This document shows positions 49,605 to 64,000 of a DNA stretch of 64,000 nt, piece after piece (position 1 is the first letter of the stretch; the number at the start of each line of letters is the position of its first letter). Source of the stretch: Rhodococcus sp. ABRD24 (lineage in GTDB: Bacteria > Actinomycetota > Actinomycetes > Mycobacteriales > Mycobacteriaceae). Where the stretch lies: the NCBI RefSeq assembly GCF_004328705.1, contig NZ_CP035319.1, forward strand, positions 1,550,001-1,614,000, written 5' to 3'. The notes beneath the pieces are model-generated. The model was given only the letters and a program-made list of their open reading frames with translations. It was not told the DNA's origin and made no database searches. Both the position numbers and the translations under genes were made by a program.

Positions 49605-50633
49605 CTACGCCAGACCGCGCAGGCGCTCGACCTCGGCGTTGAACTCGTCGATCGCCTCGACCGAAGTCATGTGACCGACACCCTTCAGCACGATCAAACG
49701 CTCGAGGTGCTCGGCGTCGTCGAGCGCCTGCGCCAGCCGGCGGGCATGCGACGGCGGGGTGAGCCGGTCGGCGGTACCCACCATCACGGTGGTCGGCACG
49801 TCCAGGTTCTTCAGGCCGTCCTTGATGTCCAGGGTGCTGATGGCGGCGCCCCAACCGCCGCGGGTACGCGGATGGCACTCCGAGACGATGCGTTCGCAGA
49901 ACTCGACCTCGGCAGGGGTCGCCCCCGGGGCCATCGCGACGTACTTGATAGCGCGGGCGGTGAGCGGGGAGGTGGGCATCGGCATGACCGAACCCAGCAC
50001 GGCCCGACCCACCGGAACCGGCACACGCGGGAAGCCTTGCGGCAGCGGGATCACCGTGGTCTCGGCGATCAGGCTGTCGGTGCCGGTGCTCGCCAACAGC
50101 ACTGAACTCGCATACTGCTGCACCTGTTCGGGGTAGCGGCCGGCCCACGCCACGATGCTCATGCCGCCCATGCTGTGGCCGACGATCTCGGCCTTGCGGC
50201 CGTCGCGGACCGTCGCAGCGAGAACCGCGGCCAGGTCGTCGGCCAGTACGTCGGGGCTGAGCGGGGCATTACCGATACCACTGCGCCCGTGACCGCGCTG
50301 GTCGTAGGTGATGACCCGATACTTCCCAGCGAGCGCGTTGACCTGCGGGTTCCAGAAGTCGGCCGAACATGTCCAGCCATGGCTGAGCACGATCGGATCG
50401 GCATCGGGAGAACCGTAGGCCCGCACGTGCAGTTCGGCGCCGTCGGCAGTGGTGACGGGGATGATCTCCGGCTCGAGGTCTGGGGTGTCGAACAGCGACG
50501 CCTCGGCCTCGGAACCTGCTGTTGCGGCAACCCTTCGCGCCCGCAATGCGACGACGGCGCCGCCTGCCACTGCGCCCAACCCTGCGGCGCCGATCAGGAG
50601 CCACAGCGCCTTGTGCCGGTTCCGTGCGGTCAC
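49605..50633 (-). CDS. membrane-anchored alpha/beta hydrolase
   Basis: 342 residues from GTG 50633 (VTARNRHKALW). One N-terminal helix (about 9-30) anchors it, then the hydrolase fold: IVLSHGWTCSADFW, DQRGHGRSG, nucleophile GHSMGGMSIVAW, acid in VGTADRLTPPSH and His in KGVGHMTSVEA. Probably an esterase or lipase facing the outside. Convergent with purU (10-bp gap). Shares strand with the DUF2516 gene. Confidence 0.85.
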   Translation of the reverse strand: MTARNRHKALWLLIGAAGLGAVAGGAVVALRARRVAATAGSEAEASLFDTPDLEPEIIPVTTADGAELHVRAYGSPDADPIVLSHGWTCSADFWNPQVNALAGKYRVITYDQRGHGRSGIGNAPLSPDVLADDLAAVLAATVRDGRKAEIVGHSMGGMSIVAWAGRYPEQVQQYASSVLLASTGTDSLIAETTVIPLPQGFPRVPVPVGRAVLGSVMPMPTSPLTARAIKYVAMAPGATPAEVEFCERIVSECHPRTRGGWGAAISTLDIKDGLKNLDVPTTVMVGTADRLTPPSHARRLAQALDDAEHLERLIVLKGVGHMTSVEAIDEFNAEVERLRGLA

Positions 50634-50697
50634 TCTTCCGCCCCTTTGCTCCGCTGGCTGCGGTACTCGTTCATGGCCCCGGCCGATCAGCCAGGAG

Positions 50698-50991
50698 CTA
50701 CCAGCGCGGTCCGCGCTGGACATCGTCCACACGCGGACGCACGTCGACGAGGTACACACAGATCGCGACCACGGCGATCAGTCCAAGCAGGTGCACCGGA
50801 CCGAACAAGAACACTACGAACAGGGCAGCGACGAGAATGCCGAGCCAGATCGGCTTGGTCAGCTTGTCGACGGCCGTGAAGGCATCCTTTCGCTGGCGCA
50901 CCGCATGGAAGATCGCGAAGGCTGCCGCGGCAAGTGCCAGCAGCTGCAGCGCGAACATGATCAGACCAGTGATCCCTTGAACGTTGAACAC
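50698..50991 (-). CDS. DUF2516 small membrane protein (Rv0476-like)
   Basis: 97 residues with two or three hydrophobic helices (about 5-28, 45-65, 66-82) and a cytosolic KDAFTAVDKLTK loop. The family is conserved next to hbhA in mycobacteria and relatives. Function unknown; proximity suggests a cell-envelope role. Confidence 0.85.
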   Translation of the reverse strand: MFNVQGITGLIMFALQLLALAAAAFAIFHAVRQRKDAFTAVDKLTKPIWLGILVAALFVVFLFGPVHLLGLIAVVAICVYLVDVRPRVDDVQRGPRW

Positions 50992-51076
50992 GTAACCATC
51001 CTACGAATCGAGGGCGCCGACGCGAAGATCCCCACGCAGTCGGGAGCGTGGGGATCCTCGCGCGATGGTCACCGAA

Positions 51077-51925
51077 TCAGTGGGTGGTCTTCTTGGCCGG
51101 AGCCTTCTTGGCGGCCGGAGCCTTCTTCGCGGCAGCAGCCGGGGTCGCCTTGGCAGCGGGCGCCTTGGCCGGTGCGGCCTTCTTGGCGGGAGCATGGGCG
51201 GCCGGCTTCGCGGCGGGAGCCGGCTTCTCGGCGGGCTTCGGCGCCGCGGCCTCGGCCGCGGCCTCGACGCGCTCGGCAGCGGCGGCGGAGGTGGACTCCG
51301 CACGCGCACCAGCTCCGACGACGCGGTTCGCAACGGAGTCGCCGGTCTCGGACAGCACCACCGCGGCCTCGTCGGCGACGTCGCTGATGCGTCCGGCAGC
51401 ACGGCCCGCGAGCTTGGCGGCCTGCTCGCCGAGTTCACGCGTCTGACGCGCCACGGTGCCGAGGGCTTCCTCGGTGAGCTCGACGGCGTCACCGAACACC
51501 GCCTCGGCGCGCTCGATCTGCTCCTCGACGGCCGGCTGCTTACGGATACGGTCGACGGCTTCCTCGCCACGCTCCGCGAGCGCGACATAGAGGTCGGAAG
51601 CCACCTTGAGATAGGCCTCGGCCACCTTACGGAGCTCGTCCGCGGTGAAGCGCTCACGCAGCTCGGCAAGCTCCTCGGGCAGCTCGGACGGCAGCGCCGC
51701 GAGACGCTCGCGCAGCTGCTCGACGCCCTCGGACACCTCGGCGGGCAGGTTGGCCCAGCGCTCGCGCGCCTCCTCGATGCGGCCGGACACATCGGTGTTG
51801 GTGTCCTCGGCGCGCGAACGCATCTGCGCCACGACGTCGGCGACGGCCTGGACCACCAGGTCACCGGTACCGACGGCAGCATAGAACGGGGTCTTCACGT
51901 TTTCGATGATCTTCGGATCAGTCAT
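51077..51925 (-). CDS. hbhA: heparin-binding hemagglutinin homologue
   Basis: 282 residues from ATG 51925 (MTDPKIIENVKTPFYAAVG). N-terminal hydrophobic patch, then a long coiled coil (about 45-200; repeated ELREQ/ERLAALPSE heptads), then an Ala/Lys/Pro tail with AKKAP and PAKKT repeats from about 240, the part that binds heparan sulphate in mycobacteria. In non-pathogens HbhA-type proteins associate with lipid bodies or the envelope. The tail is longer than the mycobacterial one as I recall it. The ATG overlaps the XRE gene's stop by eight bases. Confidence 0.9.
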   Translation of the reverse strand: MTDPKIIENVKTPFYAAVGTGDLVVQAVADVVAQMRSRAEDTNTDVSGRIEEARERWANLPAEVSEGVEQLRERLAALPSELPEELAELRERFTADELRKVAEAYLKVASDLYVALAERGEEAVDRIRKQPAVEEQIERAEAVFGDAVELTEEALGTVARQTRELGEQAAKLAGRAAGRISDVADEAAVVLSETGDSVANRVVGAGARAESTSAAAAERVEAAAEAAAPKPAEKPAPAAKPAAHAPAKKAAPAKAPAAKATPAAAAKKAPAAKKAPAKKTTH

Positions 51926-52391
51926 TCTCGGATCTCCTGTCGAGTGGATCTGCGATCTCGTGCTCTGGTTCGTCCGAGGGGTCGGCCTGATCGGCGGCGG
52001 ATTCGGACTGTTTCGGGTCGTTCTCGCGACGGAACGACTCGTAGATCTCGAGAAGCACCTGCTTCTGCCGTTCGGTGATGGCACCGTCGGCCAGCAGCGC
52101 GTCCCGGACTGGACCGTGCGGGCGTTGCTCGAGGAACCCCGCCTGCATGTACAGGACCTCCGAGGAGACCCGCAGGCCCTTCGCGATCTGAGCGAGGACA
52201 TCGGCGGACGGCTTGCGCAGCCCGCGTTCGATCTGGCTCAGGTAGGGATTGCTGACGCCCGCGAGCTGGGCGAGCTGACGCAGTGACACCTGCGCCGCCT
52301 CCCGTTGCGAGCGGATGAAGCCGCCGATGTCCTGAGCGGCATTGCTCACCGCTCGTGCAGCACCGCTCATGTCGTCGGGCTCATCGACCAT
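51918..52391 (-). CDS. XRE family transcriptional regulator (Rv0474-like)
   Basis: 157 residues from ATG 52391 with GGGAG upstream. HTH_3 domain at about 22-78 (RQLAQLAGVSNPYLSQIERG, PSADVLAQIAKGL), then an acidic C-terminus. The stop lies inside the hbhA start region, so it should co-express with and control hbhA. An inverted repeat at 52436-52462 is a candidate autoregulatory operator. Confidence 0.88.
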   Translation of the reverse strand: MVDEPDDMSGAARAVSNAAQDIGGFIRSQREAAQVSLRQLAQLAGVSNPYLSQIERGLRKPSADVLAQIAKGLRVSSEVLYMQAGFLEQRPHGPVRDALLADGAITERQKQVLLEIYESFRRENDPKQSESAADQADPSDEPEHEIADPLDRRSEND

Positions 52392-52435
52392 CAGTACTCC
52401 CTGTTCTGTTCGCAATTCCCACGGTAGAACAGGGC

Positions 52436-52462
52436 GCTAACAATTGCAAGCACTTTGTTAGC
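52436..52462. promoter_or_regulatory. inverted repeat upstream of XRE-hbhA operon
   Basis: GCTAACA, 13 bases, TGTTAGC. Perfect seven-base arms 20 bp centre to centre, close to two helical turns, 45 bp before the XRE start. The spacer contains a further TTGC pair. Fits a dimeric XRE operator. Confidence 0.55.
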
Positions 52463-52496
52463 ACCCGGAATCCCGAGTCGAAGAAACCGCCTCTGA

Positions 52497-53843
52497 TCAG
52501 GCGAAGAGAAGCTGCGAGACGGTGTAGATGAGCAGGCCCGCGAGGGATCCGACGACGGTGCCGTTGATGCGGATGAACTGCAGATCCCGGCCCACCTGAA
52601 GCTCGATCTTGCGGCTCGCCTCCTCGGCGTCCCAGCGCTCTACGGTCTCGGTGATGACCGCGGTGATCTCGTCGGTGTAGTTCTCCGCGATGTAGCGAGT
52701 ACCCGAGAGAAGCCAGCCGTCGACCTTGGCCCGCAGGTCCGCGTCGTCACGCAGCCGCTCGCCGAGACCGGCTACGTTCTCGGCGACCTTGCGGCGCAGC
52801 GTGCTGTCCGGATCGTCGACCGACTCCATGATCAGCCGTTTGGCCACCCGCCATGTCGCGGCAGCGAGGCCGGTGATCTCCTCGCGGCCCATGATCTCGG
52901 CCTTGATCGACTCGGCCTTGGCGATCGTGGCGGGGTCGTTCTGCAGGTCGTCGGCGAAGTCGATCAGGAAGCGGTTGGCGGCGAGCCGCACCTCGTGCTC
53001 CGGATTGGAGCGCACCTTCCACGTGAACTCGACGAGCTCGCGGTGGATCTTGTCGCCGAGCATGGCGTCGACGAACTTCGGCGACCACGAGGGCGAATCG
53101 CGGCTGATGATCCGGTCGATCGTCTCCTGACTGTTCAGCGCCCACTGATGTGCGCGCTCGGCCAGCAGATCCAGCAGCGGCATCTGCCGGTTCTCACGCA
53201 GCAGTTCGGCGAGCACCTTGCCGATCGGCGGGCCCCAGTCGGGTTCGGCGATACGGCGCACGATGGTGTTGTCGATGATCGCGGTGACATCCTCGTCCCG
53301 GAGCACCTCGACGACCCCTCGCAGCAGTGTCGCGGTCTCGGCGGCGACCCGATGGGCGTGCACGGGCTCGGCCATCCAGGTGCCCAAGCGCAGCGGGATC
53401 TGCGCGGCCTCGACCTTCGCCGACACCACCTCGGGTGCCAGGAAGTTGTCGCCGACGAAGTGACTCAGGCTCTCGCCCAGCTGATCCTTCTTGCGTTTGA
53501 TGATCGCGGTGTGCGGGATCTTCAACCCCAGCGGATGACGGAACAGCGCGGTCACCGCGAACCAGTCGGCCAGCGCGCCGACCATGCCCGCCTCCGACGC
53601 CGCACGCACATAACCGACCCAGGCGCCGGCGCCGCGGGCCTCCTGCCAGCGGCAGAACAGGTAGACGACGGTGGCGAAGACGAGGAAGCCGGTCGCGACC
53701 GCCTTCATTCTCCGCAAGTCACGCTTCTTGGCGGTGTCGTCGAACATGCCGACGAACGGCGAGGCGGTCGTCGGCGTCGGCGGGGATCTGTCCTCGGACC
53801 GACGGGGAGGCTGGGCGGACTGCAGTGGCTGCACAACCGACAT
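52497..53843 (-). CDS. DUF445 membrane protein (Rv0473-like)
   Basis: 448 residues from ATG 53843. Helix near 47-65, ADWFAVTALFRHPLGLKIPHTAIIKRKKDQLG is the family hallmark, a long cytosolic helical domain follows, and a C-terminal helix (VVGSLAGLLIYTVSQLLF) closes the protein. The DUF445/YheB family is poorly understood. Divergent from the TetR gene with a 90-bp shared control region, as in Rv0472c-Rv0473. Confidence 0.85.
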   Translation of the reverse strand: MSVVQPLQSAQPPRRSEDRSPPTPTTASPFVGMFDDTAKKRDLRRMKAVATGFLVFATVVYLFCRWQEARGAGAWVGYVRAASEAGMVGALADWFAVTALFRHPLGLKIPHTAIIKRKKDQLGESLSHFVGDNFLAPEVVSAKVEAAQIPLRLGTWMAEPVHAHRVAAETATLLRGVVEVLRDEDVTAIIDNTIVRRIAEPDWGPPIGKVLAELLRENRQMPLLDLLAERAHQWALNSQETIDRIISRDSPSWSPKFVDAMLGDKIHRELVEFTWKVRSNPEHEVRLAANRFLIDFADDLQNDPATIAKAESIKAEIMGREEITGLAAATWRVAKRLIMESVDDPDSTLRRKVAENVAGLGERLRDDADLRAKVDGWLLSGTRYIAENYTDEITAVITETVERWDAEEASRKIELQVGRDLQFIRINGTVVGSLAGLLIYTVSQLLFA

Positions 53844-53933
53844 TGTGCCGAAATCCGTGATCATGGGCCCGAGACAGCCGTCACGCCCCGTGAGGATGCC
53901 CACTAAACTGGCCTTCTGGATCAAACCGAACGG

Positions 53934-54686
53934 ATGTGGCGAAACCAAGTGCCGAAGCAAACCGCAGATGCGCAGCAGACAACCGAATCCGAGACAACCG
54001 TCAGAAGCGAGAAGCCGGACGGTCGCAAACGGCGCTGGCGCGAGCACAAGATCGCCCGCCGCGAGGAACTCGTCGACGGCACGATCTCGGCCATCCGCAC
54101 GCGCGGCCGGGACATCGGCATGGACGACATCGCGTCCGAGATCGGTGTCTCGAAGACGGTCCTCTACCGCTACTTCACCGACAAGAACGACCTCACCAGC
54201 GCGACCATGATTCGGTACGTCGAGACGATCCTCGCGCCACGCATGTACGAGGCGATCGCCGAGGACCTCGACGAGTTCGAGCTCACCCGGGTCGCCATCT
54301 CCGCCTACGTGGAGACGGTGTCTGCGGACCCCGAGGTGTACCTGTACGTCATGGCCAACAGCTCCGGGCCCAATCGCGATGTGGTCGCCGAATCGGAGCG
54401 GATGATCGCCGACCTGCTCGCCACCGTGCTCGGCGAACGGCTGCGGGGTATGGACATGGACTCGGGCGGATCCGTGCCGTGGGCGTACGGGATCGTCGGC
54501 GCGGTCCAGCTCGCGACGCACTGGTGGATCTCGAACAAGTCGATGTCGACCGAGGACCTCATCGACTACCTCGTGATGATGACGTGGGGCGGAATCTCGG
54601 GGATCGCGGCGACCAACGGATCGCCGGCGCGTTTCAAAGCGGCGCCGCATCCGCTGCTCGAGAAGTCTGCGGCCGAGGACGCCTGA
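53934..54686 (+). CDS. TetR family regulator (Rv0472c-like)
   Basis: 250 residues. The HTH at about 45-90 (RGRDIGMDDIASEIGVSKTV followed by LYRYF) is preceded by a basic arm KPDGRKRRWREHKIARREE. The ligand domain includes YVMANSSGPNRDVV. ATG 53934; a GTG at 53949 is an alternative. Divergent from DUF445, which it may regulate. No metal or drug clue in the ligand domain. Confidence 0.85.
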   Translation: MWRNQVPKQTADAQQTTESETTVRSEKPDGRKRRWREHKIARREELVDGTISAIRTRGRDIGMDDIASEIGVSKTVLYRYFTDKNDLTSATMIRYVETILAPRMYEAIAEDLDEFELTRVAISAYVETVSADPEVYLYVMANSSGPNRDVVAESERMIADLLATVLGERLRGMDMDSGGSVPWAYGIVGAVQLATHWWISNKSMSTEDLIDYLVMMTWGGISGIAATNGSPARFKAAPHPLLEKSAAEDA

Positions 54687-54843
54687 CCGATCCGGTGTTG
54701 TGCCTTGCCGAGGGCCTGTCGCACCCGCCCTTTCCCGTGATGGAGGACGCCGACCGCCTGCTCTAGGGTGACCTGTGGCATGTGCCCTCGGCTTCCCCAC
54801 CCGCCGCAATTCGCCGCCTCTTCTCCCCTTCCGGAGGTCTTCG

Positions 54844-56217
54844 TTGGCCGACAAGGTCCCCACGTCCCGGCTCCTCCGCGGATCGAGGCTCGGCCAGGTC
54901 GCAGCCGGTCGCGCGATCCGAAACGCGGGTACCCGCCTGTCGATGGTCGGGCGCTCGGAGGAGGTGCGCGCACGGCTCTCCGAACAGTCCGCGATCGCCG
55001 CCGCGGACCAGCTCGTCACGGTCCTCGGGGGCATGAAGGGGGTCGCGATGAAGCTGGGCCAGATGCTCTCCATCCTGGACCTCGACCTGGTACCCGAGAA
55101 CCATCGGGATGAGTTCCAGCGCAAGCTCGCCGCGCTGCGAGACCAGGCGCCGACAACCTCGTTCGAGACGATGAGCGCGGTGATCGAGGCCGACTACGGG
55201 CGGCCCTTGAGCGAGGTGTTCGCCGAGTTCGATTCCGAGGCGGTGGCGGCCGCATCGATCGGCCAGGTGTACCGGGCACGGCTGCACGACGGCCGCGAGG
55301 TCGCGGTGAAGGTGCAGTATCCCGGCATCGACGCTGCGATCCGCGCCGATCTGAAGAACCTGACGATGTTCCTCAAGATCTGGAGGTCGTCAGTACCGTC
55401 GTTCTCGATGCCGCCGCTGCTGGAAGAGCTGCAGCTGAACTTCGAGGGCGAACTCGACTACGAGCGCGAGGCGCAGACTCAGCACCGGATTGCGGCGACG
55501 TACGCCGACCACCCGTTCATCGCCGTGCCGGACAGTCTCCCCGAGTTGAGCACCCGACGGGTGCTGGTGAGCGAGTTCTTCGAGGGCACAAGCTTCAGTC
55601 AGATCCGTTCACTGCCTCAGCACGAGCGAAATCGGATCGGCGAGATCCTGTTCCGGTTCTACATCGGCTCCCTCTACCGATACCACGAATTCTGCGGGGA
55701 CCCGCACCCCGGCAACGTGCTGCTCGGCACCGACGGCAGGGTCGGGTTCGTGGATTTCGGGTTGTTCAACAGCATGGACGCCGAACACGTCGAGTTCGAG
55801 AAGCGCTGCCTGCGCGCCGCGACGGAGGGCCGCGCGGACGACCTGTACGCGCTGATGGTTCGCCGCGGCGTCATCTCCCGTGCTGCCGAGGTGACACCTG
55901 ACGAGTGCCTCGAATATGTGTTCGCCGCCGCCGAATGGAATCTGGTCGACGAGGAGATCGCCATCACGCCGGAGATGGCGAACGCCGGGTTCCTCCTCGC
56001 GATCGATCCCCGGGCGGCCGAGTTCTCGGGCATGAAGAGTCAGACCCTGCCGCCCGAGCACTTGTTCTCCCGACGCGCCGAATTCCTGACCTTCGGCGTT
56101 CTGGGCCAACTCGATGCGTGCGCCAACTGGCACCGCATCAGCCGCGAATGGACGTACGGTGACCCCGCTGCCACCGAACTCGGTGTGGCGGAGGAGAAGT
56201 GGCGCCCCAGTCGGTGA
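54844..56217 (+). CDS. ABC1/UbiB-family atypical kinase
   Basis: 457 residues from TTG 54844, chosen because GGAGG lies seven bases upstream; the in-frame GTG at 54775 has none. KLGQ motif in GVAMKLGQMLS, Ala-rich loop EAVAAASIGQVYRA, ATP Lys in VAVKVQYPG, catalytic region FCGDPHPGNVLLG and metal-binding VDFGLF. UbiB/ADCK proteins support quinone metabolism or lipid homeostasis; actinobacteria use menaquinone. Followed by PPK2 with a 61-bp gap. Confidence 0.88.
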   Translation: MADKVPTSRLLRGSRLGQVAAGRAIRNAGTRLSMVGRSEEVRARLSEQSAIAAADQLVTVLGGMKGVAMKLGQMLSILDLDLVPENHRDEFQRKLAALRDQAPTTSFETMSAVIEADYGRPLSEVFAEFDSEAVAAASIGQVYRARLHDGREVAVKVQYPGIDAAIRADLKNLTMFLKIWRSSVPSFSMPPLLEELQLNFEGELDYEREAQTQHRIAATYADHPFIAVPDSLPELSTRRVLVSEFFEGTSFSQIRSLPQHERNRIGEILFRFYIGSLYRYHEFCGDPHPGNVLLGTDGRVGFVDFGLFNSMDAEHVEFEKRCLRAATEGRADDLYALMVRRGVISRAAEVTPDECLEYVFAAAEWNLVDEEIAITPEMANAGFLLAIDPRAAEFSGMKSQTLPPEHLFSRRAEFLTFGVLGQLDACANWHRISREWTYGDPAATELGVAEEKWRPSR

Positions 56218-56278
56218 ACGGAACACGCCGACCGCCGAACCTCGGCAAAGGCCCGTCTCGCTATGGCACAGTCTGACC

Positions 56279-57142
56279 ATGACGGCGCGCGATCAGAAGG
56301 AACTGTGGACCACCCCGGCGGCCCTGGCGCTGCGCGCGGGACCCGGCACCAAGGTCGCGAAGATCGACACCAAAGCGACGCCGGGTTTCACCGGCAACAA
56401 GGCGGACGGCGAACGGCTACTCGAGGAACGCGGAGCAGTTCTCTCGGCGTTGCAGGAGAAGCTGTACGCGAACGGGCGCTCGGGAGACAAGCGGTCAGTG
56501 CTGCTGATCCTGCAGGGCATGGATACCGCAGGCAAGGGTGGGATGGTCCGGCACGTGATCGGCCATGTGGACCCGCAGGGCGTCGACCACGCCGCATTCG
56601 GAGTGCCCACACGCGACGAGAAGCGGCACCACTACCTGTGGCGGATCAACAAGGCGTTACCGCGAGGCGGACAACTGGGAGTCTTCGACCGGTCGCACTA
56701 CGAGGACGTGCTCGTGGTCCGGGTGCACAACCTGGTGCCGGAGGACGTGTGGAGCGGCCGGTACGAGGAAATCAACCAGTTCGAACGCGAACTCACCTAC
56801 GCCGGAACCACATTGGTGAAGGTTGCCATGTTCGTCTCGCTGGATACACAGAAGGCCCGGCTCGCGGAACGGCTCGAGCGGCCGGACAAGCACTGGAAGT
56901 ACAACCCGGGCGACGTCACCGAGCGGGCGCTGTGGCCGCAGTACCAGGAGGCCTACCAGGCGATGCTCGACCGGACGTCCACAGACTACGCGCCGTGGTA
57001 TGTGGTTCCGTGTGATCGCAAGTGGTACAGCCGGATTGCCGTCACCGAGCTACTCATAGATGCGCTCGCTCGACTCGACCTGGAATGGCCCCCGGCCGAG
57101 TTCGACATCGAGGTCGAGAAAGAACGGTTGGCCCGTTCCTGA
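56279..57142 (+). CDS. polyphosphate kinase 2 family protein
   Basis: 287 residues. Walker A QGMDTAGKGGMVRHV, lid residues RDEKRHHYLWRI and Walker B GVFDRSHYEDVLVVRVH identify PPK2, which moves phosphate between polyphosphate and nucleotides. With ppx at the other end of the window it gives the cell both making/using and degrading activities, alongside senX3-regX3. ATG 56279. Its class (ADP or AMP substrate) cannot be settled here. Confidence 0.9.
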   Translation: MTARDQKELWTTPAALALRAGPGTKVAKIDTKATPGFTGNKADGERLLEERGAVLSALQEKLYANGRSGDKRSVLLILQGMDTAGKGGMVRHVIGHVDPQGVDHAAFGVPTRDEKRHHYLWRINKALPRGGQLGVFDRSHYEDVLVVRVHNLVPEDVWSGRYEEINQFERELTYAGTTLVKVAMFVSLDTQKARLAERLERPDKHWKYNPGDVTERALWPQYQEAYQAMLDRTSTDYAPWYVVPCDRKWYSRIAVTELLIDALARLDLEWPPAEFDIEVEKERLARS

Positions 57143-57172
57143 TCAGAGCATGTGCCCTGATCAGAGCATGTG
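57138..57172. repeat. 17-bp tandem direct repeat at PPK2 3' end
   Basis: CCTGATCAGAGCATGTG occurs at 57138-57154 and 57156-57172, one base apart. The first copy holds the PPK2 stop; the second overlaps the convergent small gene's stop. Probably a recent local duplication. Confidence 0.85.
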
Positions 57173-57382
57173 TGGGGTGCTGTGATGAACCTTGTGGTCG
57201 TGATGGGTGACGCCGCCGAAGATTCCGGCGGAACCGGCCAGCAACACAAGGCTCGCCAATCCCGCGATCAAGGCCCACCCCCCGAATCCACTGCCGGCGG
57301 CCACGAGGAACAGCCCCAGGGTCGCGATGCCCAGTAAGGCGAGTCCGTAACCGGCCCATCCAGCGAAGTCGTTCAGAGTCAT
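57161..57382 (-). CDS. small membrane protein with His-rich tail
   Basis: 73 residues: two or three hydrophobic helices (about 7-30 and 34-57), then GGVTHHDHKVHHSTPHML, a tail with six His that could bind metal. AGGAGG lies upstream of the ATG. No family recognised. The final residues are written by the direct repeat described at 57138-57172. Confidence 0.7.
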   Translation of the reverse strand: MTLNDFAGWAGYGLALLGIATLGLFLVAAGSGFGGWALIAGLASLVLLAGSAGIFGGVTHHDHKVHHSTPHML

Positions 57383-57536
57383 CTGACAATCCCTCCTCGA
57401 GATCGGGCGTCGAGGTCTGTGACACGACGCTACGCCACATCGAGGAGGGACGGCAGGTGCCGCAGATATCAGAAGGTGGCCGCGTCGATCACGAAGCGGT
57501 ATCGCACCTCGGTGCTGGTTGGCCGAACAGACACAG

Positions 57537-57577
57537 CGCGCCGGGGCCGGACCCGCAGACGATCCGGTCCCGGCGCG
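57537..57577 (-). terminator. terminator hairpin after metE-type gene
   Basis: Arms at 57537-57551 and 57563-57577 (15 bases, one G-T-compatible mismatch), loop 11 bases. It begins 16 bases beyond the MetE-type stop. No T-run, as is common in GC-rich actinobacteria. Confidence 0.6.
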
Positions 57578-57592
57578 CGCCGAACGGCGTGC

Positions 57593-59881
57593 CTACCCCT
57601 GCGTGGCACGCCGTCGCAATCGCCGAGCCGCCGCAACCAGGTTGCGCAGCGACGGCTCCAGCTGCCAATAGTGGCGGGTCTTGAGTCCGCCGTCGGGGTT
57701 TGCCCACAGCCGGTCGAGATCCACCGATTCGGCGGCCTCGGTGAGCAGCGCATCGAGCTCGTCGATGTCCGGAATCCGTGCCGAACGGCTCTCGTACACA
57801 CCGGGTCCGACGCCGTGGGTGAGCGCCTTCTCCTTTATCGCGTCGAGCACCCAGGTGATGGAGCGCGTCGCGACGATCGCGGTGACATCGGCGTCGAGTC
57901 GTTCGATGGCGTCGACCACCGAGCGCTGTCCCGAGTAGGTCAGATGCGTGTGAATCTGCGTCTCGGGCTTGGCGCCCCCGGTAGCGAGACGGAACGCATC
58001 CACTGCCCAGTCCAGATACTCCTTGCGCCCGGTTTCCCGGAGCGGCAACAGTTCCCGGATCGCCGGCTCGTCGACCTGGATGATCGCGATGCCGGCGGCC
58101 TCGAGGTCGGCAATCTCGTCACGAATGGCGAGCGCCAGCTGGTCTGCAGTCTCGTGCAGCGGCTGGTCCTGCCGCACGAACGAGCGAGCCAGCATCGTGA
58201 CCGGCCCGGTGAGCATGCCCTTGACCGGCTTGTCGGTCAGCGACTGTGCAAACGAGATCCACTCCACCGTCATCGGTTTCGGTCGCCGGACGTCGCCGTA
58301 CAACACCGGCGGACGGGTGCATCGCGATCCGTACGCCTGCACCCAGCCGTTGTGGGTGAACGCGTAACCGTCGAGCAGCTCGGCGAAGTACTGGATCATG
58401 TCGTTGCGCTCATGCTCGCCGTGCACGAACACGTCCAGGCCGATGTCCTCCTGCAACGCGATCGTGCGGGCGATCTCGTCCTGGATGCGCTTGTAGTACT
58501 CGTCCCAGTCGAGACGGCCCTGGCCCAGGTCGTACCGGGCCTGACGGATCGCGTCGGTCTGCGGGAACGAGCCCAGCGTCGTGGCCGGCACTGGCGGCAG
58601 GTTCAGCCGGGCCTGCTGCGCGACGCGGCGCTCCTCGTACGGCGCGCGGACGCGGTGTTCGGGCTTGATGGCGTTGACACGCGAACGGACGTCGTGCTTC
58701 TGCTTGAAGTGCACCGACGTCGGCTTCTTGCGCCAGCGGTCCGACGGACCCTCGGTGAGCGCCTTCGCGAGCGAGACCACCTCACCGACCTTCTGCTTCG
58801 CGAAGGCGAGGCGGTCGGCGACATCACCGGGCAGGTCGTACTCCATGAGCACGTCGTAGGGCACGTGCAGCAGTGAGCACGATGTCGAGACCACCAGGTC
58901 CGGAACGACATCCTTGATCTGGTTCAGGTAGGTAAGGGTGTTGAAGCGGTCGACGCGCCACACGTTGCGACCGTCGACGACGCCGGCATACAGGCGCTTG
59001 CGCTTGATGCCGGGGATCTTCGCGAGTTCTTCGGCGGTGATCCGGCCGTTGACGAGGTCCAGGCCGAGTGCCTCGACCGGCGTGGCGGCGAGCACCGCGA
59101 GCGCCTCGCCGAGCCGGCCGTACGGGCCGGTCACGAGGATGCGCGGACGCAGCGGGGCGTGTGCGAGCTTGTCGTATGTGCGACCGAGCGCTGCCAGTTC
59201 CGCGGGGGTGCGGTCCTCGGTGAAGCACGGCTCGTCGAGCTGAACGCAGGTGGCGCCGGCCTTGGCGAGCTGCTCGAACAGGGCCTCGTACTGCGGCAGC
59301 AGCTGATCGAGCAGATCCAGTGTGGAGAACCCCTCCTGCGTGGACCCGGGCGCGACCTTCGACAGCAGCAACAGTGAGACCGGTCCGAGAACCACGGGGC
59401 GCAGCTCGATACCGCGGGCCTTGGCGCGCTCGAACTCGTCGAGCAGGGTCTCCGAATGCAATGAGAACGTGGTGCGCTCATCGAGTTCGGGCTGACGGTA
59501 GTGATAGTTGGTGCCGAAGAAACGCACGAGCTCGAGCGGCGGGAAGTCCGGGCGGCCGCGAGCCATGGTGAAGTAGAAGTCGAGCGGGTCCAGCTCGCCT
59601 TGCAGCGGGGTGAACCGCTCGGGGATCGCGCCGAACATCAACGCGTTGTCAAGGACGTGGTCGTAGTACGAGAACGTGTTGCCCGGCACCTGACTCAGCC
59701 CGGTGGCAGCCAGTTCACTCCACGTTTCCTCCTGCAGTTCCTTTGCGACGGAGACGAGTTCGGCCCGGGATCCCGTGCCGTGCCAGTACGCCTCGAGGGC
59801 GCGCTTGAGTTCACGACGGGGACCGATACGCGGGTATCCCAGGATGCTGGATCCGTACCCGGCGGTGTTTGCGGCGGACAT
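57593..59881 (-). CDS. metE: MetE-family protein lacking three zinc ligands
   Basis: 762 residues, full length for cobalamin-independent methionine synthase, both barrels present (LGYPRIGPRRELKRALEAYW; TTLGSFPQTDAIR; VHGEHERNDMIQYFAELLDG; NGWVQAYGSRC; IIQVDEPAIRE). In E. coli MetE the catalytic zinc is held by His641, Cys643, Glu665 and Cys726. Here the aligned positions are His646, Thr648 (IHTHLTYS), Val670 (VTAIVATRS) and Gly731 (NPDGGLKTR), so three of four are lost. Codons ACC, GTC and GGC were checked. Homocysteine activation by zinc thus seems impossible, and its real activity is open. ATG 59881. Upstream is a terminator, so it has its own promoter. Confidence 0.9.
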   Translation of the reverse strand: MSAANTAGYGSSILGYPRIGPRRELKRALEAYWHGTGSRAELVSVAKELQEETWSELAATGLSQVPGNTFSYYDHVLDNALMFGAIPERFTPLQGELDPLDFYFTMARGRPDFPPLELVRFFGTNYHYRQPELDERTTFSLHSETLLDEFERAKARGIELRPVVLGPVSLLLLSKVAPGSTQEGFSTLDLLDQLLPQYEALFEQLAKAGATCVQLDEPCFTEDRTPAELAALGRTYDKLAHAPLRPRILVTGPYGRLGEALAVLAATPVEALGLDLVNGRITAEELAKIPGIKRKRLYAGVVDGRNVWRVDRFNTLTYLNQIKDVVPDLVVSTSCSLLHVPYDVLMEYDLPGDVADRLAFAKQKVGEVVSLAKALTEGPSDRWRKKPTSVHFKQKHDVRSRVNAIKPEHRVRAPYEERRVAQQARLNLPPVPATTLGSFPQTDAIRQARYDLGQGRLDWDEYYKRIQDEIARTIALQEDIGLDVFVHGEHERNDMIQYFAELLDGYAFTHNGWVQAYGSRCTRPPVLYGDVRRPKPMTVEWISFAQSLTDKPVKGMLTGPVTMLARSFVRQDQPLHETADQLALAIRDEIADLEAAGIAIIQVDEPAIRELLPLRETGRKEYLDWAVDAFRLATGGAKPETQIHTHLTYSGQRSVVDAIERLDADVTAIVATRSITWVLDAIKEKALTHGVGPGVYESRSARIPDIDELDALLTEAAESVDLDRLWANPDGGLKTRHYWQLEPSLRNLVAAARRLRRRATQG

Positions 59882-59910
59882 GCGGGTCGACCTTTCCCTT
59901 CAAGCACCTT

Positions 59911-59962
59911 GCGCCCGTGCGCCTTTCCCACTGCCGAGGCTGCGGAGAAGGCGCACGGGCGC
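59911..59962 (-). terminator. terminator hairpin between fadB2 and metE-type gene
   Basis: Perfect 15-base arms at 59911-59925 and 59948-59962 (GCGCCCGTGCGCCTT and its complement), 22-base loop. It begins 35 bases after the fadB2 stop. A cobalamin riboswitch would not fit in the 115-base gap. Confidence 0.65.
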
Positions 59963-59996
59963 CGAGGAGCTGGCTGGTGTTGCCGTAAAGTGCGCT

Positions 59997-60893
59997 CTAA
60001 CTTGCCTTCTTGGTGACACGGCCGTTGTCGGCGTACTCGTAGAAGCCGGCGCCCGACTTCTTGCCGACGAGCCCTGCCTCGACCATCCGCAGCAGCAGTG
60101 GCGGTGCCGAGTACAGCGGCTCCTTGAACTCCTCGTACATCGAGTCGGCGATCGACTTGACGGTGTCAAGTCCCACCAGATCGGTCAGCGCGAGCGGACC
60201 CATCGGGTGCGCACATCCGAGCACCATCGCCTTGTCGACGTCTTCCTTGGTGGCGAAACCGGATTCCACCATCCGAATTGCGGAGAGCAGGTACGGCACC
60301 AGGAGCGCGTTGACGACGAAACCTGAACGGTCCGCCGAGCGCACGACCTGCTTGCCGAGCACCTCACTCGCGAAGGCTTCCGCCCGCTCCGACACCGCGG
60401 GGCTGGTCTTGAGCGTGGTGACCAGCTCGACGAGCGGTAGGACGGGAACCGGATTGAAGAAGTGCATGCCGATAACGCGCTCAGGCGCCTTCGTCGAGAT
60501 GCCCAGCTTCATGATCGGGATCGAGGACGTGTTCGATGCGAGCACCGCGTCCGGATCCGTGACAATAGAGTCGAGTTCGGTGAAGATCTCGCTCTTGACC
60601 TTCTCGTCCTCGAGAACGGCCTCCACAACGAGCTGCCGGTCTGCGAAGTCGCCGAGATCGGACGTGAAGCGCAGCCGCCAGGCAGCCTGCTCCCGCTCAC
60701 GTTCGGTGATCTTGCCGCTACTCACGCCGCGGTCGAGCGAACGCAGGATGCGGGAGCGTCCGGCTGCCGCGAGCTCGCGGGTCTGCTCGAACACCAGCAC
60801 GTCGACGTGTGCACGAGCGCACACCTCGGCGATTCCGGAACCCATGATGCCGGCGCCGATCACGCCGACGCGCTGAATCTTTTCGCTGGTCAC
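59997..60893 (-). CDS. fadB2: 3-hydroxybutyryl-CoA dehydrogenase
   Basis: 298 residues from GTG 60893. NAD motif GVIGAGIMGSGIAE (8-21), catalytic His in IGMHFFNPVPVLPLVE, Ser in ASNTSSIPI and the family GFVVNALLVPYL. It oxidises 3-hydroxybutyryl-CoA to acetoacetyl-CoA. It sits 93 bp below isocitrate lyase in the same direction, matching the Rv0467-Rv0468 pair used during growth on fatty acids. Confidence 0.95.
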   Translation of the reverse strand: MTSEKIQRVGVIGAGIMGSGIAEVCARAHVDVLVFEQTRELAAAGRSRILRSLDRGVSSGKITEREREQAAWRLRFTSDLGDFADRQLVVEAVLEDEKVKSEIFTELDSIVTDPDAVLASNTSSIPIMKLGISTKAPERVIGMHFFNPVPVLPLVELVTTLKTSPAVSERAEAFASEVLGKQVVRSADRSGFVVNALLVPYLLSAIRMVESGFATKEDVDKAMVLGCAHPMGPLALTDLVGLDTVKSIADSMYEEFKEPLYSAPPLLLRMVEAGLVGKKSGAGFYEYADNGRVTKKAS

Positions 60894-60986
60894 GTCAGCT
60901 CCTTTTCGGAAAGTGGAGGTCGGACCCCGGGGCGGGATCAGGCGTGGAGGACACCCCGCCGATCCCTCCCCGGGAGGTCGAAAGGC

Positions 60987-62276
60987 CTAGTGGAACTGGC
61001 CCTCTTCGGTGGAGCCCTTGAGAGCAGCCGTCGAGGTGTTGGGGTCGACAGTGGTGGCGATGGTGTCGAAGTAGCCGGCGCCGACCTCACGCTGGTGCTT
61101 GATGGCGGTGAAGCCGCGCTCCGCAGCAGCCTTGAACTCGCGCTCCTGCAGGTCGACGAAGGCCGTCATGCCCTCGCGGGCGTAGCCGTAGGCCAGGTCG
61201 AACATGCCGTAGTTGAGCGAGTGGAAGCCGGCCAGGGTGATGAACTGGAACTTGAAGCCCATCGCGCCGAGCTCCTTCTGGAACTTCGCGATGGTCGCGT
61301 CGTCCAGGTGCGCCTTCCAGTTGAAGGACGGGGAGCAGTTGTAGGCCAACAGCTGGTCCGGGAACTCGCTGCGGACGGCCTCGGCGAACTTCTTCGCGAC
61401 CTCGAGGTCCGGCACGCCGGTCTCCATCCAGATGAGGTCGGCGTAGGGGGCGTAGGCCTTGGCGCGAGCGATGCAGGGCTCGATGCCGTTCTTGACGCCG
61501 AAGAAGCCCTCAGCGGTGCGGGTGCCGTCGAGGAACTCGCGGTCGCGCTCGTCGACATCGGACGTGATGAGGGTCGCGGCCTCGGCGTCGGTGCGGGCGA
61601 TGATGACCGACGGGACGTCGGCGACGTCAGCAGCCAGACGCGCGGAGGTGAGGGTGCGGATGTGCTGCTGCGTGGGGATGAGCACCTTGCCACCGAGGTG
61701 GCCGCACTTCTTCTCCGACGCGAGCTGGTCCTCCCAGTGCACGCCGGCGGCGCCGGCGGCGATCATGGCCTTCTGCAGCTCGTAAGCGTTGAGCGCGCCA
61801 CCGAAGCCTGCCTCGGCGTCGGCGACGATCGGAGCGAGCCAGTTGGAAACCGAGGTGTCACCCTCGGTCTTGGCGATCTCGTCGGCGCGCAGGAGGGCGT
61901 TGTTGATGCGGCGCACGACGGCCGGAACCGAGTTGGCCGGGTAGAGGCTCTGGTCCGGGTAGGTGTGGCCGGAGAGGTTCGCATCACCGGCGACCTGCCA
62001 ACCGGACAGGTAGATGGCCTTGAGCCCGGCACGGACCTGCTGGACCGCCATGTTGCCGGTGAGGGCGCCGAGCGAGTTGATGTAGTCCTCGTTGTTCACC
62101 AGGTCCCAGAGGATCTCCGAGCCGCGGCGAGCGAGGGTGTGCTCCTCGACGACGGTGCCCTGGAGCTTGGTGACCTGCTCGGCCGTGTAGCTGCGCGTGA
62201 TTCCCTTCCAGCGCGGATTGGTGTCCCAATCCTGCTGGATCTGCTCTGCGGTCTTCGGGGTTCCGGTGGTCGACAT
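60987..62276 (-). CDS. aceA: isocitrate lyase
   Basis: 429 residues. The catalytic loop [47 protein letters not shown] and YNCSPSFNW are all typical of the short bacterial isoform ICL1. It splits isocitrate to glyoxylate and succinate in the glyoxylate shunt, needed for growth on acetate and fatty acids. ATG 62276 has GGAG upstream. The 400-bp region upstream holds CRP-like and RamB-like sites. Confidence 0.97.
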
Positions 62277-62434
62277 CGAAAGCTCCACTTCTTCTCTGCT
62301 GCGTCGCCCGGTACGGATGTACTGCTTCACATCGTTGCCAGGCCGTTCGGATGTACAAACCGACAATGGCACAGACGAAAACGGTCGTCTACCTGTTGCT
62401 AATGCCAATCTTCGCTAGGTTTTCAATCCAATCA

Positions 62435-62448
62435 GCAAAGCTTGCAAA
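62435..62448. promoter_or_regulatory. RamB-like box
   Basis: GCAAAGCTTGCAAA resembles the RamB motif built on AAAGTTTGCAAA as I recall it, with GCAA/TTGC arms around three bases. It lies about 160 bp before the aceA ATG. Confidence 0.45.
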
Positions 62449-62622
62449 TGTTCCTAGCGGCCAGACGGTCGCTTGGCTTACCGTCCAGTAGGCATGAAAG
62501 TTACCCGCAAGTAGGCATCTACCTCGGCATTGACCGGGAAACCTGATGCGCCGATCGGACCCGAACTCGGCCACGTCGAAAAGACGACCACAGTCGGAGA
62601 GAAGCCAGGGCCGCACGGAAAC

Positions 62623-62638
62623 TGTGACTGCAATCACG
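62623..62638. promoter_or_regulatory. CRP/GlxR-like site
   Basis: TGTGACTGCAATCACG matches TGTGA-N6-TCACA at nine of ten bases. About 350 bp upstream of aceA and 39 bp from the stop of the hypothetical gene. It fits carbon-source control of the shunt. Confidence 0.5.
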
Positions 62639-62676
62639 GCAGGTAGGGACGGACCCCTACCGACCAGCCCTGCCGG

Positions 62677-63507
62677 CTAGTCCCTGCCGAGGATTGTCAC
62701 GCGTGCGAAGCCGTAGCGAGCGTCGAGCGATGTCACCGTGGCCGAGATGTCATAGCCGCGCGAACCGAACTCGGCGCATTCGAGAACCGCCGAGCCCTCG
62801 ACGATCGGCGACAGGCGAGTGAGCTTCCATCGCGTGTGGACCAACCCGTCAGCGGCTGTGCCGGACGCGGCTGCGCGGGCCGTCGTCCCCTGTCGGCGCA
62901 TCGGTCGTTCGCGCCAGCTCTGCCGGGCCAGCCAATCGGGTGTCAGCCGCGTCTGCTGCGATCCGCAGCCGTCGAGCGCGACGGTGCCCACGAGTCCGCG
63001 GCCGTCGCCACTGACCGGGGAGATTGCGAGTCCCATACCGCCGACCCCGTTGACGAGCGCGAGCCCCGTGTGCGGGATGGCCGGCAAGCCGAAGGCGTCC
63101 CGGCCGCCGCGATCCGTGGTGGGCGAGCCCACCAGGATGTCCGATGTGAACGCACTCGCCTGCAGATCCCCGGGCCGCAGGCAGCTACACGACAGGCCTG
63201 CGAACAGACGGTCGAACGGGTCACCGACCTCGGCCGAACCGGAGGACAGCGGTTCGACGATCCACACCGCGATCTGCGGTTGCTCAGGAATACCGAGGCC
63301 CTCGGGCAGCACCGCCCGGGCGAACGATGGATTGACATCGGTCGTGAGGACGAGCCATCGGGCGGTGACGGAGGCACCGAAAGCCTCCTCTGGTTCAGCC
63401 GCCACCACGGGTGCCACAGGTGCCACACAGCCCTCCGCAACGGGCGGTGTGAACGCCCTCGACTGCCGGCGCGCGCTCCGCGAGCGGCGCTTCGAGGTAA
63501 AGATCAT
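62677..63507 (-). CDS. hypothetical protein, possibly acetoacetate-decarboxylase-like fold
   Basis: Up to 276 residues. From residue 50, RWLVLTTDVNPSFARAVLPE, EQPQIAVWIVEP, SCSCLRPGDLQASAFTSDIL and RDAFGLPAIPHT resemble the acetoacetate decarboxylase-like beta-barrel family. The Lys that forms the Schiff base in true decarboxylases (usually GYPKK-type) is replaced by GLPAIPH, so that activity is unlikely. The first ~45 residues are low complexity and the start is uncertain. Upstream of aceA on the same strand. Confidence 0.55.
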   Translation of the reverse strand: MIFTSKRRSRSARRQSRAFTPPVAEGCVAPVAPVVAAEPEEAFGASVTARWLVLTTDVNPSFARAVLPEGLGIPEQPQIAVWIVEPLSSGSAEVGDPFDRLFAGLSCSCLRPGDLQASAFTSDILVGSPTTDRGGRDAFGLPAIPHTGLALVNGVGGMGLAISPVSGDGRGLVGTVALDGCGSQQTRLTPDWLARQSWRERPMRRQGTTARAAASGTAADGLVHTRWKLTRLSPIVEGSAVLECAEFGSRGYDISATVTSLDARYGFARVTILGRD

Positions 63508-63780
63508 CGTGACCTCTGACGGAACTGACCGAGCCGGAGTCCTCGCGATCCCTGGACCCGAACCGCCTGAACGGGGGAAAGCCCACGCCCTGTTCAGGGG
63601 GCTGGCGTGAGCCGGAGACGCCCGTCGGCCTGTTGGGCGTCGGCATCATTGCGTCCGAGACGTGCAGGCCCTCGCCGACCGCCTCAAACCGCCTCGCAAA
63701 CAATGTTTTACGAAAATGCGTGCTGGTTGTTGCCCAGCCTTTTCCACCGGGACCGAGATGTCAAGACTTGTCGACAAACG
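63508..63780. other. intergenic stretch
   Basis: 273 bases, no convincing gene. It holds an AT-richer segment around 63695-63715 (CAAACAATGTTTTACG) that could be a promoter, and the control region of the gene at 62677. Confidence 0.4.
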
Positions 63781-63999
63781 TCATGACCGGTCTGCACACG
63801 TGACATTGTCGGGTTCGGCACGACGCTCGTCGCGCAAGTACCACACCACCCAGGTGACAGGGAACAACGCGCCACTGAGCACCGCCAGCGTCCTCACCTG
63901 ACCGCGGCGGCGCGCACCCAAAGATGTCAGGCCGGCGAACGGCAGCCATGTCACAACAGCGATACCGACGCCCAACAGCACTGCCTCCACCCCGTTCAT
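63781..63999 (-). CDS. small membrane protein at right edge
   Basis: 72 residues with two hydrophobic helices (about 5-25 and 38-55), RRRGQ between them and a charged tail YLRDERRAEPDN. ATG at 63999 is one base from the window end, so an upstream start cannot be excluded. No family recognised. Confidence 0.5.
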   Translation of the reverse strand: MNGVEAVLLGVGIAVVTWLPFAGLTSLGARRRGQVRTLAVLSGALFPVTWVVWYLRDERRAEPDNVTCADRS

Positions 64000-64000
64000 G

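Follow-up and report, generated by a model that had tools for sequence, protein, structure and literature searches.

Cobalamin-independent methionine synthase, MetE, is a textbook zinc enzyme. In the E. coli protein the zinc is held by His641, Cys643, Glu665 and Cys726, and the backbone of homocysteine is contacted by Ser433, Glu484 and Asp599 (PMC7857596). In the T. maritima enzyme, the pterin is in stacking contact with Trp539, its N3 and 2-NH2 groups bind to Glu583 and its O4 to Lys104, while Arg15, Lys18, Arg493 and Arg496 grip the folate tail at its first glutamate (PMC539065). Here we describe a zinc-less paralogue of MetE, called metE', encoded in a stretch of 64,000 nucleotides from Rhodococcus sp. 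ABRD24 (contig NZ_CP035319.1, positions 1,550,001 to 1,614,000; this whole stretch is referred to as the window). Copies of MetE without zinc would imply either a zinc-free methylation of homocysteine or a new reaction carried out under the name metE. From its residues and its relatives, we give an even chance to the proposal that metE' is a repurposed, likely zinc-independent enzyme of sulfur amino acids acting in sulfate starvation, rather than one that makes methionine in the known way. Residue counts set 139 proteins of the zinc-less clade, collected by a first search and by a second one seeded with the most distant branch, against 120 ordinary MetE proteins taken from the matches listed to a canonical profile. 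The gene and its zinc-ligand positions are as follows.

57593..59881, minus strand: metE-like gene (metE', product P0001), 762 amino acids, no internal stop.
57944..57946, minus strand: His646, the sole zinc-ligand position retained (E. coli His641); His in 139/139 clade proteins and in 120/120 ordinary MetE.
57938..57940, minus strand: Thr648, replacing the zinc ligand Cys643; Gly 75, Thr 44, Ser 8, Asn 6, Ala 5 and Pro 1 of 139, against Cys in 120/120 ordinary MetE.
57872..57874, minus strand: Val670, replacing the zinc ligand Glu665; Val 132 and Ile 7 of 139, against Glu in 120/120.
57689..57691, minus strand: Gly731, replacing the zinc ligand Cys726; Gly in 139/139, against Cys in 120/120.

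The initial annotation regarded the product as a full-length MetE homologue, and the domain analysis agrees. Both MetE domains are present (PF08267 at residues 11-325 and PF01717 at 432-753), the Pfam scan detected no domain beyond these two, and MetE crystal chains match the protein across residues 11-758. The AlphaFold2 model shows the complete MetE double barrel and overlays MetE across 735 residues; it is the second model built, the first (predicted local distance difference test score, pLDDT, of 66) having been too poor, with an alignment that probably held close kin only. With the canonical MetE encoded elsewhere in its genome the protein shares 53% identity. It passes NF003556 (985.4 for a cut-off of 541) and falls short of the TIGR01371 cut-off (929.95), as do two other clade members (904.2 bits for P0001, 881.8 for P0021 and 844.9 for P0122), whereas the canonical MetE of its own genome exceeds it with 1055.5 bits. 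Every source name shown among the listed clade members is methionine synthase.

The zinc site is where the two proteins part. The equivalents of the four E. coli ligands are His646, Thr648, Val670 and Gly731, and the spacings of 22 and 83 residues are exactly those of E. coli MetE, as had been proposed from the sequence of this single gene. The Cys-Glu-Cys ligands are missing from all 139 clade members and present in all 120 ordinary MetE proteins, a difference far beyond chance. An earlier survey of the clade, limited to the query and the 120 matches listed of 7645, likewise gave 121 sequences devoid of the Cys, the Glu and the Cys. Among 218 relatives the best 80 were taken as named genome loci, and no Cys stands at 648 or 731 in any of these. 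When 88 zinc-less and 35 canonical sequences were compared at 95% fixation (L034, L047 and the duplicates L109-L118 being left out), 20 positions proved to be fixed differently, two of them inserted residues. These include zinc positions 670 and 731, the variable position 648 not being counted. No obvious replacement set of zinc ligands is found among the 20: the change from Asp to Glu at 697 is alone in introducing a Cys, His, Asp or Glu. These data support the conclusion that the zinc site of metE' is dismantled and that zinc cannot be held in the known way.

The changes extend to the surroundings of the site. Thirteen of the 20 fixed differences (118, 119, 129, 130, 566, 668, 670, 697, 698, 699, 701, 703 and 731) lie in or beside loops bearing known ligand residues, a closeness judged by motif and not by measured distance, and four of these (118, 119, 129 and 130) surround the residue of the N-terminal barrel that contacts the pterin. 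Two of the changed loops, GPGVYESRSARIPDID (692-707) and RLWANPDGGLKTR (724-736), are near-invariant, with a mean entropy of 0.02 bits each against 0.61 for the protein as a whole. The positions concerned, together with those that are retained, are given below.

57779..57793, minus strand: ESRSA (697-701), replacing the ordinary DIHSP, with His replaced by Arg699; fixed differences at 697, 698, 699 and 701.
57851..57853, minus strand: Trp677, a newly acquired residue of the loop that follows the lost zinc Glu; Trp in 139/139, against Gln 88 and Glu 32 of 120 ordinary MetE.
58184..58186, minus strand: Arg566, replacing the pterin-stacking Trp (T. maritima Trp539); Arg 126, Phe 6, Leu 6 and Gly 1 of 139, against Trp in 120/120.
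58052..58054, minus strand: Glu610 (T. maritima Glu583, which there binds pterin N3 and 2-NH2); co-varies with residue 566.
58568..58570, minus strand: Ser438, homocysteine carboxylate position (E. coli Ser433), retained in 139/139 and 120/120.
58412..58417, minus strand: Glu489, homocysteine amino-group position (E. coli Glu484), retained in 139/139 and 120/120, with the gained His490 adjoining.
58070..58072, minus strand: Asp604, homocysteine amino-group position (E. coli Asp599), retained in 139/139 and 120/120.

The His of the 'IHSP' motif, which we take to be the proton donor (acid) in methyl-folate activation, is present in 120/120 ordinary MetE and replaced in 136 of the 139 clade proteins (Arg 133, His 3, Lys 2 and Gln 1 at position 699). 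The residues at 566 and 610 occur in few combinations (Arg-Glu 125, Arg-Asp 1, Phe-Thr 6, Leu-Thr 6 and Gly-Glu 1 of 139), Glu610 being retained in 126. This co-variation, which amounts to one split in the tree, suggests that Arg566 and Glu610 may pair and that the pterin-ring site has been rebuilt. At the position of T. maritima Lys104 the clade has Arg (119) or Lys (20), and the folate-tail residues Arg23, Lys26, Arg520 and Arg523 are present in 139/139, a statement about residue presence only. Loss of the metal, of the pterin stack and, mostly, of the acid, with the amino-acid and tail residues kept, makes methionine synthesis by the known route unlikely.

Another explanation is a working metal site made from other residues, or simply a misalignment. 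His644 and His646 are retained in 139/139 and His490 stands beside Glu489 in 124 clade proteins (Val 10 and Ile 5 in the others; Pro 119 and Ala 1 in ordinary MetE), so that a metal site of the His/His/Glu type is conceivable in principle. On account of His490 we have raised the probability of this explanation, which nevertheless stays small: the 15 members with Val or Ile lack the His, the sole new potential ligand among the fixed differences is the Glu at 697, the spacing is exact with high local identity on both sides, and the model overlays MetE over nearly its whole length. A zinc-saving (Zur-type) paralogue is conceivable but not supported; the COG0523 paper, which sets out the concept of zinc-free isozymes, has methionine synthase only as a B12 example in the passages available (PMC2770081).

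The window's genome carries canonical metE, metH and metF elsewhere, so that other genes already provide for making methionine in the known way. Its canonical metE is preceded by a cobalamin riboswitch (RF00174; 1148-1355 of locus L002, 95.6 bits), as are 19 of 20 canonical metE genes of related genomes when the riboswitch beside them is counted. By contrast, none of the 8 metE' loci scanned (of 80) has a cobalamin riboswitch, or any Rfam family at gathering score; metE' thus seems not to be regulated by the B12 riboswitch. Among 46 metE'-bearing genomes, which represent 46 of the 80 loci, a second full-length match of canonical-like identity was found in 35 (once in two pieces) and not in 11; 20 of these second copies were read as canonical and the rest called by their 50-55% identity. 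Nine more genomes, at least three of which repeat genomes of the first set, gave canonical metE in 5 and not in 4. All 15 genomes without canonical metE have metH (18/18 tested), so none obviously depends on metE' for methionine. A gene annotated metE on the Rhodococcus sp. PD04 plasmid (NZ_CP142144.1, 414898-417126) is 51% identical to the metE' protein and so probably of canonical type.

The connection with sulfate starvation comes from R. qingshengii IGTS8. In this strain, a 'MetE' (peg5907, with 2 Cys and 7 Met by the authors' count) was 190-273-fold more abundant on dibenzothiophene than on sulfate, stood in the top ten of the sulfur proteome by abundance and was induced together with MetY, within a set that, as far as the table is shown, is rich in organosulfur scavenging enzymes (PMC8557817). 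The composition of this set favours a scavenging role for metE'. The gene order reported for IGTS8 is peg5907 ... AtsA 5938, TauD 5939, ROK 5940 ... MshA 5948 (PMC8557817), and the same order surrounds metE' on a complete chromosome of the R. erythropolis type (G016: metE' at 1272904, sulfatase at 1243964, tauD at 1242972, ROK at 1241358 and mshA at 1234364), where canonical metE is found at 1927315, some 690 kb away from mshA. Moreover, metE' of R. erythropolis-type strains has 2, 2, 2 and 1 Cys (L018, L021, L022 and L017), against 4 in the canonical MetE of three genomes of this type (L085-L087). From gene order and cysteine count, the induced peg5907 is likely metE', taken by the authors for ordinary MetE. 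The methionine-synthesis switch inferred for IGTS8 and the proposal to delete MetE, with reliance on MetH, would then probably rest on metE' and not on canonical MetE.

Other accounts of MetE in these bacteria are less specific. In R. qingshengii PM1 metE is reported to respond to selenite by induction (PMC13414329), and in Rhodococcus JG3 to cold, at -5 °C (PMC6080646), in passages silent on which copy is meant; the passages of PMC9426449 and PMC5218467 mention MetE without telling the copies apart. PMC12478193 concerns another enzyme. Among the titles listed by literature searches, none is of a paper on a zinc-less MetE in Nocardiaceae, subscription journals being mostly outside their coverage.

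These results bear on two further explanations. The first is a zinc-free, sulfur-sparing methionine synthase, in which arginines or another group would replace zinc in the MetE reaction when cysteine is scarce. The joint loss of the zinc ligands and, in 136/139, of the 'IHSP' His with its presumed acid role speaks against it, as do the absence of the pterin-stacking Trp from 139/139 and the presence of metH in 15/15 genomes without canonical metE. It would explain why homocysteine-backbone and folate-tail residues are all retained within a full double barrel and, if peg5907 is metE', the few cysteines and the induction with MetY on dibenzothiophene (PMC8557817). We consider it possible but unlikely. 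The second, to which we assign a similarly low probability, is a non-catalytic binder of homocysteine or methionine, perhaps also of folate, acting as a sensor, buffer or regulator. Ligand residues kept while catalytic groups are lost are the usual mark of a pseudoenzyme; yet the protein has no extra Pfam domain, its two changed loops are near-invariant and, if peg5907 is metE', a place in the top ten of the sulfur proteome is more enzyme-like (PMC8557817).

The zinc-less clade spans many genera, including Rhodococcus, Nocardia, Skermania, Hoyosella and Tomitella. An exact DNA pattern for NPDGGLKTR, strict enough to miss variants, occurs in 19 of 397 genomes of the order, that is in 19/80 of the own family and 0/317 outside it. 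Beyond the family, a search of the phylum gave full-length matches of at most 53% identity, and those fetched (L119 and L121-L127) read NPDCG. In both trees a branch with a Shimodaira-Hasegawa-like approximate likelihood ratio test (SH-aLRT) support of 100 separates the zinc-less proteins from the rest, the root not being known; in the first tree (32 zinc-less and 35 canonical rows) the long canonical branch L119 meets the zinc-less branch, which calls for the usual warning about long branches. One branch, of Lolliginicoccus, Hoyosella, Tomitella and Speluncibacter, corresponds to L152-L154 and P0122-P0133.

The same sequences bear on another alternative, a relic metE copy in the course of being lost, which would fit the lack of the exact pattern in 61 of the 80 sampled genomes of the family. 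The metE' frame is, however, intact in 79 of the 80 named loci, counting L034, which is truncated by nothing but the end of its contig. The ratio of nonsynonymous to synonymous substitution rates (dN/dS) is 0.02-0.12 in nine zinc-less pairs, against 0.05-0.21 in six canonical pairs. In 11 pairs of genomes carrying both genes, dN is lower for the zinc-less gene in 11/11 (canonical to zinc-less ratio 1.0-5.2), dS in 10/11 and dN/dS in 10/11, the exception being 0.160 against 0.157. The gene therefore evolves no faster than its ordinary paralogue; it is under strong purifying selection and not decaying, and these selection data rule out a relic, to which we leave practically no probability. The one short frame, of about 610 amino acids (L047 8001-10240, Prescottella defluvii CP121458), stands among neighbours some of which are also short, and probably reflects frame errors in the assembly.

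The gene also has a fixed setting, described by the following features.

59997..60893, minus strand: fadB2-like 3-hydroxyacyl-CoA dehydrogenase (PF02737 and PF00725), upstream neighbour; adjoins metE' in 80/80 named loci.
60987..62408, minus strand: aceA-like isocitrate lyase (PF00463); adjoins fadB2 in 77/80 named loci.
59911..59962 (whole 59903-59971), minus strand: GC-rich hairpin at the fadB2-metE' junction, with a 15-bp inner stem 59962-59948 / 59925-59911.

By our own open reading frame calls, the order aceA-fadB2-metE' on one strand is found in 77 of the 80 named loci; the contigs of L034, L051 and L052 stop short of aceA, with fadB2 still adjoining metE'. Nine further loci, some of the same species, have this order in 9/9, and three of these, from the Lolliginicoccus branch, carry a metE' that is just 66% identical to the window copy. 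aceA is essential in the oligotrophic R. erythropolis N9T-4, and the word methionine does not occur in the available passages of that source (PMC9502362). On the far side of metE' lie a DUF445 protein (52497-55124, minus strand), an ABC1-type kinase (54775-56217, plus strand) and a PPK2 polyphosphate kinase (56114-57142, plus strand). Beyond the initial annotation, metE' is one member of a many-genus clade with fixed aceA-fadB2 synteny, which very likely includes the induced IGTS8 'MetE'.

The promoter of its own that had been proposed for metE' found no backing: a consensus scan of 57300-63000 detected no sigma-70-like site, a weak test since it covers one promoter type and shuffled sequences average only 0.6 sites, and the gap to fadB2 is 115 nt, mostly hairpin. 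The inner stem of this hairpin (minimum free energy -59.8 kcal/mol, z -4.6) ends 29 nt before the metE' start codon, leaving space for little beyond a ribosome-binding site. Of 75 junctions, 72 were long enough for folding, which covered the last 110 nt of each; their median z is -3.7, with 39 no higher than -3, 45 no higher than -2 and 27 above that value. In Rhodococcus, the hairpin sequence differs between species while the pairing is kept (e.g. L018 and L022). Rfam gave for 50000-64000 of the window only microRNA models far below their gathering scores, placed on hairpins including this one.

Which function, then, would suit a conserved protein of this kind? Among the options of the initial annotation, an enzyme of new chemistry fits best, with the stacking Trp and the 'IHSP' His lost and the amino-acid pocket invariant; a decoy has no positive evidence. 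In the activity that we propose, Ser438, Glu489 and Asp604 would hold the amino-acid end of the substrate, and the emptied zinc cavity (Thr or Gly648, Val670 and Gly731), with the gained Trp677 close to it in the sequence, would accommodate a sulfur group that is bulkier or carries a charge. Arg23, Lys26, Arg520 and Arg523 would hold a glutamate-tailed cofactor, the ring of which might be gripped differently, via Arg566 and Glu610. The reaction could be the reverse in sense of methionine synthesis, with tetrahydrofolate accepting a methyl group from S-methylmethionine or another sulfonium amino acid. We would favour such a sulfonium demethylation first because it needs neither zinc for thiol activation nor acid for methyl-folate activation, and the gained aromatic residue would suit a sulfonium; DmdA offers a comparison. 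As the precise reaction of metE', S-methylmethionine-type demethylation is nonetheless a speculative choice and, taken by itself, rather a long shot. Actinobacteria of this kind make the oligoglutamyl deazaflavin F420. A wider and still doubtful idea is that of a new enzyme family in the MetE fold, zinc-free, with a rebuilt pterin-ring site and a new invariant Trp, which would act on a sulfonium or otherwise S-substituted amino acid in sulfate starvation, possibly with a glutamate-tailed cofactor different from methyl-folate, be it tetrahydrofolate as acceptor or even F420. If it were true, the name 'MetE' in the biodesulfurization proteome would conceal a scavenging enzyme.

Several observations weigh against a repurposed enzyme of sulfate starvation. 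The site loops 642-649 and 669-677 are less fixed than the two near-invariant ones (0.35 and 0.36 bits), and residues 671-700 are the least certain stretch of the model (block pLDDT 53-60). Three clade proteins, P0124-P0126, still have His at 699; they belong to the Lolliginicoccus/Hoyosella/Tomitella/Speluncibacter branch and are perhaps nearer the ancestral state. Members of this branch also combine Thr610 with Phe or Leu566 (12/139), which weakens a role for folate there. The aceA-fadB2 synteny gives no hint of sulfur, and the genomes were chosen for metE', so that its presence without canonical metE does not inform on which gene is kept longer. The link to peg5907 is inferred from gene order and cysteine count, and the gene counts differ a little: by our own open reading frame calls G016 has 36 genes from metE' to mshA, against 41 in IGTS8, and 27 to the sulfatase, against 31, and the Met count does not discriminate (7 reported; 8, 8, 7 and 8 including the start in metE', 7, 7 and 8 in canonical MetE). 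Finally, the induction in IGTS8 compares dibenzothiophene with sulfate, and no sulfonium substrate was supplied.

Compared with known systems, metE' stands closest to canonical MetE (TIGR01371 / NF003556; PDB 1U1H, 4L5Z and 1XDJ), with which it shares the double barrel, both Pfam domains and the homocysteine and folate-tail residues. It differs in the replacement of Cys643, Glu665, Cys726, the pterin-stacking Trp and, in most members, the 'IHSP' His, as well as in scoring below the TIGR01371 cut-off, in lacking a cobalamin riboswitch (8 loci) and in its fixed aceA-fadB2 neighbourhood. Zinc residues are also lost in MesB-like proteins of Chloroflexales and in MSBL-1 MesC with Gly at Glu665; these are core, single-barrel proteins for which we know of no expression link, whereas metE' is a full-length MetE. 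They are a precedent for the loss of zinc residues in the MetE fold, and their authors suggest another function for them (PMC7857596). The core methionine synthases MesA, MesB, MesC and MesD are more generally relatives in the MetE fold with a changed methyl donor and part of the folate site missing; they have no N-terminal barrel and, a few cases apart, still carry the zinc residues, while the metE' clade has kept both barrels and lost the zinc (PMC7857596).

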